Assembly: GCA_012271135.1 (NCBI GenBank)
Contig: JAAXGZ010000097.1
Coordinates: 1-64,000 of the forward strand
Source: Caldilineales bacterium
GTDB lineage: Bacteria; Chloroflexota; Anaerolineae; Caldilineales; Caldilineaceae
Length of the DNA stretch: 64,000 nt
Reading direction: 5' to 3'
The position numbers and the translations under genes are program-made. The notes under the pieces are model-generated. The model was not told where the DNA came from. It saw nothing but the letters and a program-made list of their open reading frames with translations, and did not search any database. Of the stretch, positions 39,750 through 44,788 are shown in pieces (the first letter of the stretch is position 1; each line of letters starts with the position of its first letter).

Positions 39750-40034
39750 GTGCGAATCTCGGACTTTGATCTGGCCGTAGGCCACCTGTGGCACTGCGAT
39801 CGGTGCAGGCAAACGTTTCTCGACAATCCATCCTCCGTCATGACTGGACTCAAGCTCAGCGAAGACCAACGCAACGCGCTTAACAGTCTGGCGGCCGACC
39901 CCGACACGCTGCTGGACCGGCTGCGGCATGCCTGGCCGACCGATGATGCCGCGTTTGAACGGGCTGTCAGCCACCCCCGAGCCCGGTTGCGGCATCTGGG
40001 CAGTACCGTGCGCGTGCCAGGCAGACGGACATGA
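39750..40034 (+). CDS. Small protein with HxxxCxxC zinc-finger-like motif
   Basis: 94 residues from a GTG at 39750 with GAAGG upstream. Near the N-terminus GHLWHCDRCRQTFLD fits the H-x3-C-x2-C pattern of anti-sigma (ZAS/zf-HC2-like) zinc fingers. The rest is helical and charged, and there is no membrane segment. Its stop overlaps the start of the MBL hydrolase gene (ATGA), so the two are very likely translated together. It could be a small regulator or metal-binding partner; no function is assigned. Confidence 0.65.
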   Translation: MRISDFDLAVGHLWHCDRCRQTFLDNPSSVMTGLKLSEDQRNALNSLAADPDTLLDRLRHAWPTDDAAFERAVSHPRARLRHLGSTVRVPGRRT

Positions 40035-40753
40035 AGGAACTACTGCCGGGCCTGTGGCACTTCGAGAGTCCTGCGCCTCGCGTCAATGCGTATCTTTGGA
40101 GTGGCCGCAGGGATCTAACCTTGGTCGACTGCGGTTATCCGGGACACGGAAAGGCAATGCTGGAGGAAATCCAGGATTGCGGGTTCCGGCTTGCCGACAT
40201 CGGTCGCATCATCCTGACGCATGGCGACTTGGACCACGCCGGCGGCCTGTACGAGTTGAGCCACGCCTTGCGGGTTCCGGTGCTGTGCCACCGGCTGGAG
40301 GCCCCGGTGCTCCAGAATCCCGGCATGCGCGAGTTTCGGACTGCGGACCAGCCGGACCCGACGCGCTTATTGGTCAAGTTGACCCAACGCTTTGGCAAGC
40401 CGTTTCCCGGCACTTCACCATCTCACTTCGTCGCCGACGGCGAGATGGTTGGAGGCGAATTCACCACCATACACACACCGGGCCACTCCCTTGGACACGT
40501 CAGCTACCTGCATGCGGACACGGGCATCCTGTTAACCGGCGATTTGTGCACATGTTATGGCGGCGTGGTTCGGGTTCCACTCTGGCACATCACCCCGGAA
40601 CGGGCCGAGTGCGTGCGCAGTGTGCGCAGGGTGTTGGCGACATACGGCAGCAGCTTGCGATACCTGGCATGCAGCCATGGTCCTCCCGTTGCGGACGATG
40701 CCGCCCGACGTCTGAAATTGTTTGTACAAGAACAGTTCCTACCCGAGGACTGA
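40031..40753 (+). CDS. MBL-fold metallo-hydrolase
   Basis: 240 residues. The metal motif reads THGDLDHAGG, the H-x-D-x-D-H variant of the usual HxHxDH. Further ligands are TPGHSLGHVSYL and LLTGDLCTC, with a final His in ACSHGPP. Members hydrolyse lactones, thioesters, beta-lactams or phosphodiesters; the variant motif does not point to one substrate. It is translationally coupled to the zinc-finger miniprotein. Confidence 0.9.
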   Translation: MKELLPGLWHFESPAPRVNAYLWSGRRDLTLVDCGYPGHGKAMLEEIQDCGFRLADIGRIILTHGDLDHAGGLYELSHALRVPVLCHRLEAPVLQNPGMREFRTADQPDPTRLLVKLTQRFGKPFPGTSPSHFVADGEMVGGEFTTIHTPGHSLGHVSYLHADTGILLTGDLCTCYGGVVRVPLWHITPERAECVRSVRRVLATYGSSLRYLACSHGPPVADDAARRLKLFVQEQFLPED

Positions 40754-40979: not shown

Positions 40980-40985
40980 TATAGT
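40980..40985 (+). promoter_or_regulatory. -10-like element ahead of the ABC attenuator
   Basis: TATAGT at 40980-40985; a TTGGAG sits 20 bases upstream, further than ideal. It would start transcription near 40992, just before the antiterminator arm. Support is modest. Confidence 0.4.
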
Positions 40986-40996
40986 TTCCCGGCTTA

Positions 40997-41005
40997 CTCC
41001 GCGGC
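40997..41005 (+). promoter_or_regulatory. Candidate antiterminator arm
   Basis: CTCCGCGGC here is a perfect 9-base complement of GCCGCGGAG at 41130-41138, which includes the left arm of the downstream terminator. Its last eight bases (TCCGCGGC) repeat the right arm of that terminator. Pairing of this arm with the terminator's left arm would prevent terminator formation. Confidence 0.6.
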
Positions 41006-41024
41006 GCGCAAGCACCGCCCAACA

Positions 41025-41081
41025 CACCGGGGAGGATAGAAAACGTGTATAGGTTCATGCGATCACACCAACACCCCGGTG
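41025..41081 (+). promoter_or_regulatory. Hairpin that can sequester the leader-peptide ribosome binding site
   Basis: CACCGGGG (41025-41032) is the perfect complement of CCCCGGTG (41074-41081). The left arm includes the start of the GGGGAGG ribosome binding site and the right arm lies inside the leader ORF. Ribosome position on the leader would therefore decide whether it forms. Confidence 0.5.
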
Positions 41082-41098
41082 ACCGGATTCTCCGATAG
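41045..41098 (+). CDS. Leader peptide ORF of the ABC exporter operon (17 codons)
   Basis: GTG at 41045 with GGGGAGG nine bases upstream opens a frame MYRFMRSHQHPGDRILR and stops at TAG. An internal ATG lies at 41057. It is followed 30 bases later by an intrinsic terminator and then the ABC genes, the layout of ribosome-mediated attenuators. Inferred role: ribosome stalling (for example by a drug that is a substrate of the exporter) or translation state switches the RNA between terminator and antiterminator. B. subtilis bmrCD, also a heterodimeric exporter, is controlled through a leader ORF, bmrB. Confidence 0.6.
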   Translation: MYRFMRSHQHPGDRILR

Positions 41099-41128
41099 AA
41101 CAACCTCGCTGACCGCCTAAAGGACTCG

Positions 41129-41160
41129 AGCCGCGGAGATCTGGTCCGCGGCTTTTTCTT
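41129..41160 (+). terminator. Intrinsic terminator of the ABC attenuator
   Basis: Arms AGCCGCGGA (41129-41137) and TCCGCGGCT (41145-41153) with loop GATCTGG form nine perfect pairs, and a run TTTTCTT follows. It lies 27 bases upstream of the ABC gene start and has no gene of its own to terminate except the leader ORF, so it is read as a conditional terminator. Confidence 0.8.
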
Positions 41161-41186
41161 TCCCAGGCGTTTCCGGAGCAGCGACC

Positions 41187-42923
41187 TTGAGACCAACCCT
41201 AGCCCTGTATCGCACCTTCCTGGCGCGTTACTTGGGCCCCTACCGCTGGCACGTCCTGTTGCTGGCACTGGCCGTCCTGACCAGCACGGTGGGAGCGGTA
41301 TGGGGCCCGCGCATTCTGCGGGACTTCATCGACGGCGTGGTAGCCCAAGACAGTCAGCGCATTCTGCTTCAGGCAGTGGCGTTGTACGTTTTGGTCAACA
41401 TCGTTCGGCACTTGGCCGATGCCCTGATGCAATACCTCGGCGAGTCGGTGGCGTGGGCCGCAACCAATCAGCTGCGCGAAGACCTGATCCAACATTGCAT
41501 CGGGTTGGACATGACGTTCTTCAACCGGCATCCGCCCGGCGAGATGCTGGAACGAATTGACGGGGACAGCAACCAACTGGCCCACTTCTTCTCGGTCTTT
41601 GGCATTCGTCTGGTGAGCGCCACCCTGATTCTCCTTGGAATCCTCGGTGTAGTGGCAACCGAGGACTGGCGAGTCTTCGCGGGGATGCTTTGCTTTCTGG
41701 CACTGTCCATCTGGGTCATGCTGGTCATGAGGCACTTTGGCGTGCCGTACAACGAACGGCTGCGCGAGGCGACCGCCCAATTATTCGGGTTCGTCGAGGA
41801 GCGCCTGACCAGTCTCGAAGACATCAAGTCGCTGGGAGGGGTGCCCTACACCATCCGTCAGATGTTGAATCTCATCCGTGAACAGATTAGCCGGGGCAAA
41901 CGGGCCTTCAGCCTGGGCAATCTCATGTGGCCCCTGAACCTGGCCATCATGGGCACGGGGACCGGCCTCCTGGTTGGTGGTGGTGGTTGGCTGGTCCTGC
42001 GAGGCGAAATGTCCATCGGCACGGTCTATCTGCTGATGGCGTACCTAAACCTGTTGTTCTGGCCCCTTGAGAACCTTTCCCATCAGATGGAGGAGCTCCA
42101 AAAGGCCGGAGGAAGCCTGGTCCGAATTCAGGAACTGCTGGACACCCGGTCGGCCTTGACAGACGGAAGTCTCCCAAACGCGGGCCGGACTCCACCTCGG
42201 GTCCGATTTGACAACGTGTCCTTCCGCTATGCATCCAACGAAGGCCCGGTTCTGGAGGATGTGTCGTTTGACATAGAACCGGGACGCACGCTTGGCATCC
42301 TTGGCCGCACCGGCAGCGGCAAAACGACGGTTACCAGGCTGTTGAACCGGTTGTACGACCCAGAGGCCGGGATCATTTCCCTGAACGGCACGGATCTCCG
42401 CTCATTGCGTCTGCAGACACTGCGCTCTCTGGTTGGGGTGGTCACTCAGGAAGTCCAGTTCTTCCGCGGGACCCTGCGTCAGAACCTGACGATGTTCGAC
42501 CCTCAGGTTCCCGACGAGCGCATTCTGGCCGCGATGGACAGACTCAACCTGACCGGTTGGCTGGCCGGTCTGCCGGCCGGATTGGATACCGGATTGTCAA
42601 GTTCAAGCCTGGCCCTGTCAGCCGGGGAAGCCCAGCGGTTGGCGTTGGTCCGCCTGTTCCTGCGCGGCCCGTCCATCGTCATTCTGGACGAGGCCGCAGC
42701 GCGTCTGGATCCGGCTACGGAACTGGAAGTGGAATCCGCACTGCAGGAACTGCTTGACGGTTGTACGGGAATCGTGATTGCGCATCGCCTCAAGTCCGTG
42801 GAGAAGGCGGACGATATTCTGATCCTGGAGAACGGGTGCGTGCGCGAATACGGCGACCGGCTTGCGTTGATGGCCGATCCGGACTCCGAATTGAACGAAC
42901 TGTTGCGCCTGGGATTGGAATAG
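41187..42923 (+). CDS. ABC exporter half with degenerate signature motif, attenuator-controlled
   Basis: 578 residues: six-helix membrane domain then ATPase. Walker A is GRTGSGKTT, the signature is LSAGEAQRL (degenerate LSAGE), Walker B is IVILDEAAARLD with the catalytic Glu, and the switch motif is AHRLKS with His. It should supply one competent ATP site together with the next gene's product. The start is TTG at 41187 with CGGAG about nine bases upstream. An attenuator directly precedes it, so expression is probably conditional. Confidence 0.88.
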   Translation: MRPTLALYRTFLARYLGPYRWHVLLLALAVLTSTVGAVWGPRILRDFIDGVVAQDSQRILLQAVALYVLVNIVRHLADALMQYLGESVAWAATNQLREDLIQHCIGLDMTFFNRHPPGEMLERIDGDSNQLAHFFSVFGIRLVSATLILLGILGVVATEDWRVFAGMLCFLALSIWVMLVMRHFGVPYNERLREATAQLFGFVEERLTSLEDIKSLGGVPYTIRQMLNLIREQISRGKRAFSLGNLMWPLNLAIMGTGTGLLVGGGGWLVLRGEMSIGTVYLLMAYLNLLFWPLENLSHQMEELQKAGGSLVRIQELLDTRSALTDGSLPNAGRTPPRVRFDNVSFRYASNEGPVLEDVSFDIEPGRTLGILGRTGSGKTTVTRLLNRLYDPEAGIISLNGTDLRSLRLQTLRSLVGVVTQEVQFFRGTLRQNLTMFDPQVPDERILAAMDRLNLTGWLAGLPAGLDTGLSSSSLALSAGEAQRLALVRLFLRGPSIVILDEAAARLDPATELEVESALQELLDGCTGIVIAHRLKSVEKADDILILENGCVREYGDRLALMADPDSELNELLRLGLE

Positions 42924-42934
42924 GGGGAAGTCAC

Positions 42935-44788
42935 ATGGCGTCAGCACAGACATCGTTGTCCGCCGAGGGCCGCCAAGGGCCTACCGTCCGCAATTTGACG
43001 TTCAAATTGATGGGCCTCAGTCCCTGGTGGTATTTGACCAACGCGCTTGCCTGGAGTTCGGCACATGCCATGCCCTTGCTGCCGGGCCTGGTACTCAAGG
43101 TTTTCTACGATGGGTTGGCATCCGATGCGCCGGCAACACTTTCGCCCGGTCTGGTCTTGGCATTGTTGACAGGCATTGGCTTGACACGGGCCGCGACCAC
43201 CTTCGGTGCGGAATGGCTTTGGGGAGGACTGTGGCATTTCATGACCGGCCAGGTCCGCCTGAATTTCATGCGGTTGATTGCCGGGCTTCCGGCCGCGGTG
43301 GCCACGCCCAAGTCGTCCAGCGAAATCGTCAGCCGTGTGCGCGACGACGTGGATGAAGCCTGTATGGGCCTTGAAGAGTGTGTTGATGGTCCGGGCGTAA
43401 TAGTCTTTGCCGTAGGCGCCATCGCCATTATGGCAGGCATTGACTGGGTCGCTACGGCCATGGTAGTCGCCCCGGTGATGCTGGTGTCCCTGTCCGTGCA
43501 CTTGGCCCACACCCGGATCATTCGATTGAGGACCCGTTCCCGGGAAGCGGGAGCCGCGGTGGCCGAATTCGTAGGGGAGGTGTTCAATTCGCTGCTGGCT
43601 TTCAAACTGGCTCCGGCCAACCGGGGACTGCCCGAGGCGTTCGCCGAGCTGAACCAGAAACGGCGGCGCGCCGCCGTCGCGGAAAAACTCCTGTCCGAGC
43701 TGTTCGACTTCAGCAACTCGGCGGTGACCGTGGTGTTCACCGGCGCCTTGATGTACTACATCACGGTCACGCGGGGCGACAATGCCTTCACGGTCGGCGA
43801 ATTTGTGCTCTTCGTCACCTATCTGGACCGCATCACCGAATATGCCGGTTGGGTCATCTGGATGACCGGCAACTTCAAACGGGCCAAGGTCTCCATCAGC
43901 CGCATTGCCGAAGTGGTGCCCACCGGACCGACAGCACACAGTCTGGTGGGACGTGACCCGATTGGTTTGGCGAAGGGCGACATGACGGTTCCAAGCAGCC
44001 AGGAGGGCCGCCTGGAACGGATGGAGGCTCAGGATGTCTGCTTCAGATATCCGGACACAGAGGGAGGCGTGTCCGACATCAGCCTGGCTCTGCCGGCCGG
44101 ATCGTTCACAGTCGTAACCGGGCGGATCGGTTCAGGCAAGTCCACACTCCTCAAGGCCTTGCTGGGGTTGTTGCCGATGGACCGCGGCACGCTGCTCTGG
44201 AATGGTGAGACCGTCACCGATCCGGGCAGGTTCATGACCCCTCCCCGGGCAGCCTACACCCCACAAAGTCCTCGTCTGTTCAGCGACACCCTCCACAACA
44301 ACATCACGCTGGGGGAGCAGGTGCGAGATGGCAACGTGGATGCTGCGGTGCACACGGCGGTGCTGGAACCCGATCTGGATCAAATGGCGGATCGTCTGGA
44401 GACCGCCGTCGGCCCGCGCGGCCTGCGGTTGTCGGGAGGACAGGTTCAGCGCACGGCCGCGGCGCGCATGTTGGCCGCCGATGCCCAACTGCTCGTGGTA
44501 GACGATGTGTCCAGCGCCTTGGACCTGCGCACGGAACGCCTGCTCTGGAACCGGGTCCTGAGCCATGTGGAGGGCGGACCCGACCATGAAGCGGCTGAAC
44601 CGCCTACATGCCTCGTGGTGTCCCACCGACGCCGGGTCCTGCGCCGTGCGGACAACATCCTGGTACTCAAGGAGGGCCGTCTGGAGGCTCAGGGAACACT
44701 TGAGGAACTTCTGGCCACCTCCCCTGAAATGCAAGTAATCTGGAGCCAAGCCTCCCAGGAAGCCGAAGAACTCGACCGCGGCCCGTGA
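42935..44788 (+). CDS. ABC exporter half with degenerate Walker B, partner of the preceding gene
   Basis: 617 residues. Walker A is GRIGSGKST, the signature is LSGGQVQRT (canonical), and Walker B is LLVVDDVSSALD, with Asp in place of the catalytic Glu. The switch position is SHRRRV. It is complementary to the upstream subunit, as expected for an asymmetric heterodimer. The ATG at 42935 has GGGGGAAG upstream and lies 11 bases after the partner gene's stop. Confidence 0.88.
   Translation: MASAQTSLSAEGRQGPTVRNLTFKLMGLSPWWYLTNALAWSSAHAMPLLPGLVLKVFYDGLASDAPATLSPGLVLALLTGIGLTRAATTFGAEWLWGGLWHFMTGQVRLNFMRLIAGLPAAVATPKSSSEIVSRVRDDVDEACMGLEECVDGPGVIVFAVGAIAIMAGIDWVATAMVVAPVMLVSLSVHLAHTRIIRLRTRSREAGAAVAEFVGEVFNSLLAFKLAPANRGLPEAFAELNQKRRRAAVAEKLLSELFDFSNSAVTVVFTGALMYYITVTRGDNAFTVGEFVLFVTYLDRITEYAGWVIWMTGNFKRAKVSISRIAEVVPTGPTAHSLVGRDPIGLAKGDMTVPSSQEGRLERMEAQDVCFRYPDTEGGVSDISLALPAGSFTVVTGRIGSGKSTLLKALLGLLPMDRGTLLWNGETVTDPGRFMTPPRAAYTPQSPRLFSDTLHNNITLGEQVRDGNVDAAVHTAVLEPDLDQMADRLETAVGPRGLRLSGGQVQRTAAARMLAADAQLLVVDDVSSALDLRTERLLWNRVLSHVEGGPDHEAAEPPTCLVVSHRRRVLRRADNILVLKEGRLEAQGTLEELLATSPEMQVIWSQASQEAEELDRGP

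Follow-up and report, generated by a model that had tools for sequence, protein, structure and literature searches.

The window, which is the whole 64-kb stretch of DNA analysed here, belongs to the draft, 4.05-Mb genome of a sponge-associated Chloroflexota bacterium. The locus comes from a Caldilineaceae MAG, as do the genomes of its congeners (n = 4 in the genus), and the Caldilineaceae are a family of the class Anaerolineae. Two adjacent half-transporter genes (41187-42923 and 42935-44788), one of the two ATP sites being degenerate, are predicted from their sequences to encode a heterodimeric type IV ABC exporter. Subunit 1 carries the catalytic Glu (ILDEA) and an LSAGE signature, and its homologues start with MRPT at the same place as the TTG start of the window. 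Moreover, its matches include, by sequence relationship, chains of the solved heterodimeric exporters TM287/288 and YheI/YheH (BmrCD). A sponge Spirochaetaceae MAG (L035) possesses an exporter subunit 55% identical to that of the window with the subunit genes in reverse order, possibly reflecting transfer between sponge symbionts; no leader attenuator was detected in the DNA upstream of it.

The exporter genes are preceded by a compact leader, whose features are collected in Table 1. The leader ORF (41045-41098) encodes 17 codons (VYRFMRSHQHPGDRILR, read as MYRFMRSHQHPGDRILR) and then TAG, and a gap of 29 nt separates its stop codon from the terminator hairpin at 41128-41154 (TTTTTCTTT, 10 pairs and a 7-nt loop). 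A preliminary description of this DNA had claimed a leader ORF with a strong ribosome binding site, an intrinsic terminator with a T-run, and a pairing of 41025-41032 with 41074-41081 that masks the leader Shine-Dalgarno sequence (SD). All three are borne out. GGAGG, GTG, the 17 codons and TAG are present, and the terminator has a 10-bp stem and is conserved in the four congeners. The two segments of the masking helix are perfect complements that are 100% paired in all four congeners, with a hairpin folding at -19.2 kcal/mol. We infer a transcription start near 40992, because a sequence scan of the leader region found no consensus -35 upstream of the -10-like TATAGT. A second open frame at 41079-41120 overlaps the leader (GTG, 13 codons, MTGFSDRTTSLTA); it ends 7 nt 5' of the terminator and has no SD. 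Strict intrinsic-terminator-like sites are very scarce, the attenuator's own being the sole one on both strands of the 64-kb window.

Table 1. Features of the leader and of the exporter genes in the window
Feature	Position	Strand	Basis and remarks
-10-like promoter element TATAGT (putative)	40980..40985	+	Invariant in 4 congeners, flanks vary
Upstream arm proposed earlier, CTCCGCGGC	40997..41005	+	Perfect reverse complement of 41130-41138 (GCCGCGGAG)
Small 5' hairpin, able to hold part of upstream arm	41001..41018	+	Fold, -9.6 kcal/mol
SD-hiding helix, 5' side, CACCGGGG	41025..41032	+	Perfect 8-bp complement of 41074-41081; overlaps leader SD
Leader SD GGAGG	41031..41035	+	Read from sequence, 9 nt before GTG; invariant in congeners
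Leader ORF, GTG start 41045, TAG stop 41096-41098	41045..41098	+	Start, stop and frame kept in 4 congeners
SD-hiding helix, 3' side, CCCCGGTG, leader codons 10-13	41074..41081	+	Perfect complement of 41025-41032
Proposed antiterminator, 5' arm, ACCGGATTCTCCG, last leader codons	41082..41094	+	Pairing, shuffles, congeners, constrained folding
Intrinsic terminator	41128..41160	+	Stem 41128-41137:41145-41154, loop 41138-41144, T-rich tail to 41160; -18.7 kcal/mol
Proposed antiterminator, 3' arm, CGGAGATCTGGT	41134..41145	+	Terminator left-arm apex, loop and first right-arm base
SD GGAG of first ABC gene	41175..41178	+	Sequence
ABC exporter subunit 1 (P0001), TTG start	41187..42923	+	ABC_membrane, ABC_tran; ILDEA, LSAGE
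ABC exporter subunit 2 (P0002)	42935..44788	+	Walker B Asp for Glu (VVDD), LSGGQ; degenerate partner

Every genome of the genus (4/4) carries the leader, while a similarity search did not find it in the other genomes of the order (46 searched) or in 400 drawn from the phylum, where the remaining matches were chance-like fragments of about 20-40 nt. Among the four congeners the upstream intergenic DNA diverges by 19-26% and the third codon positions of ABC subunit 1 by 16-19%, compared with 0-6% for the terminator, 3-10% for the spacer and 0-7% for the SD. These three parts, together with the start and stop codons, are thus near-invariant, and the leader nucleic acid is under constraint. The leader ORF occurs as two sequence types, with 0-1 differences within a species pair and 7-8 of 54 sites differing between pairs. 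None of these 7-8 differences is synonymous, so purifying selection on the leader peptide is not visible in the sequences. The four congeners are about equidistant in the ABC gene, yet the leader ORF falls into two types, for which recombination or changing selection may be responsible. With only four congeners to compare, no two-sided compensatory changes occur in the window's own helices.

The preliminary description had proposed that a ribosome stalled on the leader allows 40997-41005 to act as antiterminator by pairing with 41130-41138. The 9-base complement is indeed perfect in the window (p about 0.01 against dinucleotide shuffles, to which a palindromic CCGCGG core contributes). When the terminator loop is left out of the fold, the arm pairs strongly with the left arm of the terminator, and in the model with the late-leader antiterminator described below blocked it occupies that left arm for as long as the right arm has not emerged. 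The regulatory part of the proposal fared less well. Conservation in relatives had been named as a check, and the leader passes it in 4/4 congeners whereas the arm has an A-C mismatch in IRC1, besides G-U pairs in IRC1 and bin34. Folding with and without a ribosome footprint had been named as well; with the terminator loop omitted, the arm pairs at every ribosome position, and both arms lie outside the reach of a ribosome on the leader. Furthermore, other attenuators show no enrichment of 5' arms complementary to the terminator (Fisher p 0.67), for which reason a general 5'-arm rule over leaders was dropped, and a late-leader arm outcompetes the upstream arm in the window once the loop is included. 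The upstream arm is probably not the regulated antiterminator, and a switch built on it seems improbable.

The late-leader arm is proposed, on folding models, as the better antiterminator. The last codons of the leader (41082-41094) can pair with the apex and loop of the terminator (41134-41145) in a helix of 12 bp with one bulged base (-17.8 kcal/mol). With the loop in the fold, this helix has a probability of 0.97 in the window against 0.02 for the upstream arm; in SB0661, which has a weaker loop, the values are 0.50 and 0.47. A first test with a broad segment gave p 0.29 in the window and was weak, since a long GC-rich segment still finds partners when shuffled. When only the 36 nt at the 3' end of the ORF were tested against the apex and loop region of the terminator, a post hoc rule set after seeing relatives, p was 0.006 in the window and 0.015 and 0.019 in two congeners. 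All 48 cells of the helix are paired in the four congeners despite three substitutions in or near it: C84 to T and C141 to T leave the wobble pairs U-G and G-U, respectively, and T88 to A hits the bulged position. The helix overlaps the terminator stem, and by sequence and folding the two structures are mutually exclusive. Under constrained folding, in which the ribosome footprint was assumed to reach about 15 nt to each side, the helix is lost once the P-site has reached codon 9; in the model the antiterminator also forms on ribosome-free RNA. In most states, equilibrium folding of the full-length RNA is biased towards the terminator, and therefore the switch must be kinetic.

On this modelling, the locus is probably a transcription attenuator of the bmrB/vmlR kind that senses the position of the ribosome. 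RNA polymerase would start near 40992 and transcribe a short leader carrying its own SD. If translation is undisturbed, the ribosome would reach the stop codon at 41096-41098 and cover 41082-41094, leaving this arm unable to pair. The terminator at 41128-41154 would then fold and transcription would stop at the T-run. Ribosomes that slow or stall within the first seven codons or so would leave 41082-41094 free to pair with the nascent terminator apex and loop (41134-41145) before the right arm emerges, and polymerase would read through into the exporter genes. The helix 41025-41032:41074-41081 masks the leader SD and probably adjusts the frequency of translation initiation. The signal would most likely be translation inhibitors exported by the pump, or a general slowdown of translation. 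Leader translation, termination and read-through in cells, like induction by translation inhibitors, are steps that we infer.

By its anatomy, with a short SD-led ORF followed by an intrinsic terminator, the leader is assigned to the ribosome-mediated attenuators. A ligand-binding riboswitch or protein-binding leader would also be conserved and structured and end in a terminator. However, no family of Rfam release 15 scores above its gathering threshold here, and conservation is centred on the SD, the ORF end and the terminator, with no conserved aptamer-like core seen. A riboswitch or protein-binding leader is very improbable here.

Comparable leaders occur across the class. Homologous exporters (about 40-48% identity) in other genera and families of the phylum are preceded by a strong SD and a short ORF that ends just before an intrinsic terminator. 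An SD-led ORF ending 15-40 nt before the terminator accompanies 15 of the 35 terminators lying at most 500 nt upstream of such exporters, whereas among 126 further terminators of that DNA 1 has such an ORF; a few of the 15 belong to the window's genus or are closely related to each other, and the 15-40 nt range was picked after seeing examples. The claim of a leader-ORF attenuator before a heterodimeric ABC exporter, made in the preliminary description, gains support from this recurrence of promoter, SD, short ORF and terminator before related exporters. The common plan consists of an SD, a short ORF, a stop, about 16-33 nt and a terminator, together with pairing between the late leader and the terminator apex. 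The window fits this plan, its 29-nt gap falling within 16-33 nt and its late-leader pairing having the p value given above.

The recurrence also bears on whether the locus is a switch at all. The terminator might instead end upstream transcription or yield a short stable RNA, with the exporter expressed by fixed read-through, and the gene at 40031-40753 upstream of the leader does have the same orientation. However, that gene lies about 375 nt away from the terminator, conservation sets in at the promoter-like element and extends over SD, ORF, stop and antiterminator arm, and the same layout stands before homologous pumps. We regard a fixed, unregulated terminator as unlikely and retain attenuation as the preferred reading.

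Further comparative evidence comes from one Chloroflexota family (f2 in the numbering of the analysis), in which the attenuator layout precedes 32 of 34 exporters with gaps mostly of 20-28 nt. The conserved, covarying leader element was recorded before exporters at L071, L089, L095, L099, L104, L110-L120 and L122-L138. In an alignment of 33 leaders, the SD segment GCGCACTTC pairs with the late-leader segment GAAGTGCGC, and the terminator covaries. For SD helix and terminator together, 97.4% of cells are paired and eight pairs are changed on both sides, above all 500 shuffles. Additionally, the late-leader GTGCGCC pairs with a terminator apex of GGTGCAC or GGCGCAC; 98.3% of cells are paired with little covariation, and all 32 leaders tested beat shuffles. 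The other leaders taken jointly, the window included, also beat shuffles for the late-leader pairing (p 0.0016). In sequence, the class element comprises the SD GGAGCGCACTTC, the late leader GAAGTGCGCCTGTTGACCG and the terminator CACGGYGCAC. Its SD, late leader and terminator arms can form three alternative helices as described for vmlR. In constrained folds of one member (L130), the SD helix forms when the RNA carries no ribosome and the late-leader:terminator pairing when one sits on codons 1-5 and 12; both are absent once it has passed codon 13. At L007, L010, L028, L067, L070, L074, L076, L078 and L079, the leader ORF and the exporter gene are separated by two successive intrinsic terminators whose stems resemble each other and are of the GGCCACGGG type.

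Six leaders with a 1-nt deletion (L128, L131, L133, L134, L135 and L138) read EVRLLTV in place of RSAPVDR and retain the RNA arm. Since these relatives keep the late-leader RNA in another reading frame, the sequences point to the RNA arm and the ribosome position, rather than the peptide, as what matters. This bears on a further alternative, in which the leader peptide would sense one particular amino acid, or arrest on a particular nascent chain, instead of reporting general ribosome slowing. RSAPxDR is common to the leaders of one family and the window has HPGDR; codons 9-13 of the window are invariant in the congeners, and its peptide obtains a profile score with p about 0.04. However, the peptides of two congeners obtain no profile score, the leader contains no single-amino-acid run, its substitutions include none that is synonymous, and relatives read the conserved RNA in a different frame. 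At p 0.04, and unsupported in two congeners, the resemblance of the window peptide to RSAPxDR was too weak to be retained as homology. We find it unlikely that the peptide itself is the sensor, and sensing of ribosome position remains the preferred explanation.

A covariance model of the 33 leaders (R1) matches 35 of 298 class genomes in 23 genera, and also L007 from the window's own family (E 3.2e-6). It matches neither the window nor the window's own genome, where neither it nor similarity to this leader revealed further attenuators. Because the model does not match the window, its leader is taken as an analogous or divergent form of the class element, homology to it not being established. 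The two share the SD, the short ORF, a stop 16-33 nt before the terminator, SD:late-leader and late-leader:apex helices and an exporter downstream; the motif GAAGTGCGCCTGTTGACCG and RSAPVDR are missing from the window. Among the genes behind R1 matches are further ABC exporters, GNAT acetyltransferases, RIO-type kinases, an ABC ATPase and an RsgA-like GTPase, a grouping suggestive of genes that respond to translation stress. The element stands before non-exporter genes at L150, L151, L155, L157, L159, L160, L165 and L167.

Attenuation of this general logic has been demonstrated by experiment for bmrCD (PMC4191407) and vmlR (PMC9226507). With B. subtilis bmrB-bmrCD, the window shares a heterodimeric ABC exporter, a GTG-started leader ORF, a terminator/antiterminator pair and the ribosome as sensor (PMC4191407), and the comparison drawn in the preliminary description agrees in the layout of SD, short ORF and terminator before related exporters. 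The two differ in that bmrB is a 162-nt ORF with the terminator inside its coding region (PMC4191407), whereas the window ORF ends 29 nt before its terminator and the antiterminator joins the last codons to the terminator apex and loop. Moreover, a bmrB start-codon mutant is low, while the window forms its antiterminator in the model without a ribosome. Contrary to bmrB, read-through is predicted when the window leader is untranslated, because the SD-hiding helix ends at 41081, beside the antiterminator arm. The vmlR leader of B. subtilis comprises a uORF, an anti-antiterminator over the uORF, an antiterminator and a terminator, and a stalled ribosome prevents the anti-antiterminator from forming (PMC9226507). 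The class element shares this three-helix logic. In contrast, vmlR belongs to the ABC-F genes and its uORF has 3 codons (PMC9226507), and in the window the SD-hiding helix adjoins the antiterminator arm without overlapping it.

Most known cases in which ribosomes control resistance genes by attenuation are from Firmicutes, and the literature searched yielded no description of this regulation in Chloroflexota. Rfam and the same literature contained no described relative of the window leader, and the class leader element has no Rfam match either. Comparable switches before related pumps across the class thus seem to be undescribed there. With about even confidence, we propose that the window may exemplify a translation-stress control system that is phylum-wide in Chloroflexota and has gone undescribed. 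There, the RNA of the final leader codons would report the progress of the ribosome, with the peptide and even the reading frame mattering little, and would control exporters, acetyltransferases, RIO-type kinases and RsgA. The covarying element over many genera, together with the pump attenuators of sponge-associated and other Chloroflexota, provides a testable gene set that is probably switched on when translation is disturbed. Such attenuators also offer a way to guess which pumps of these mostly uncultured bacteria face ribosome-targeting compounds.
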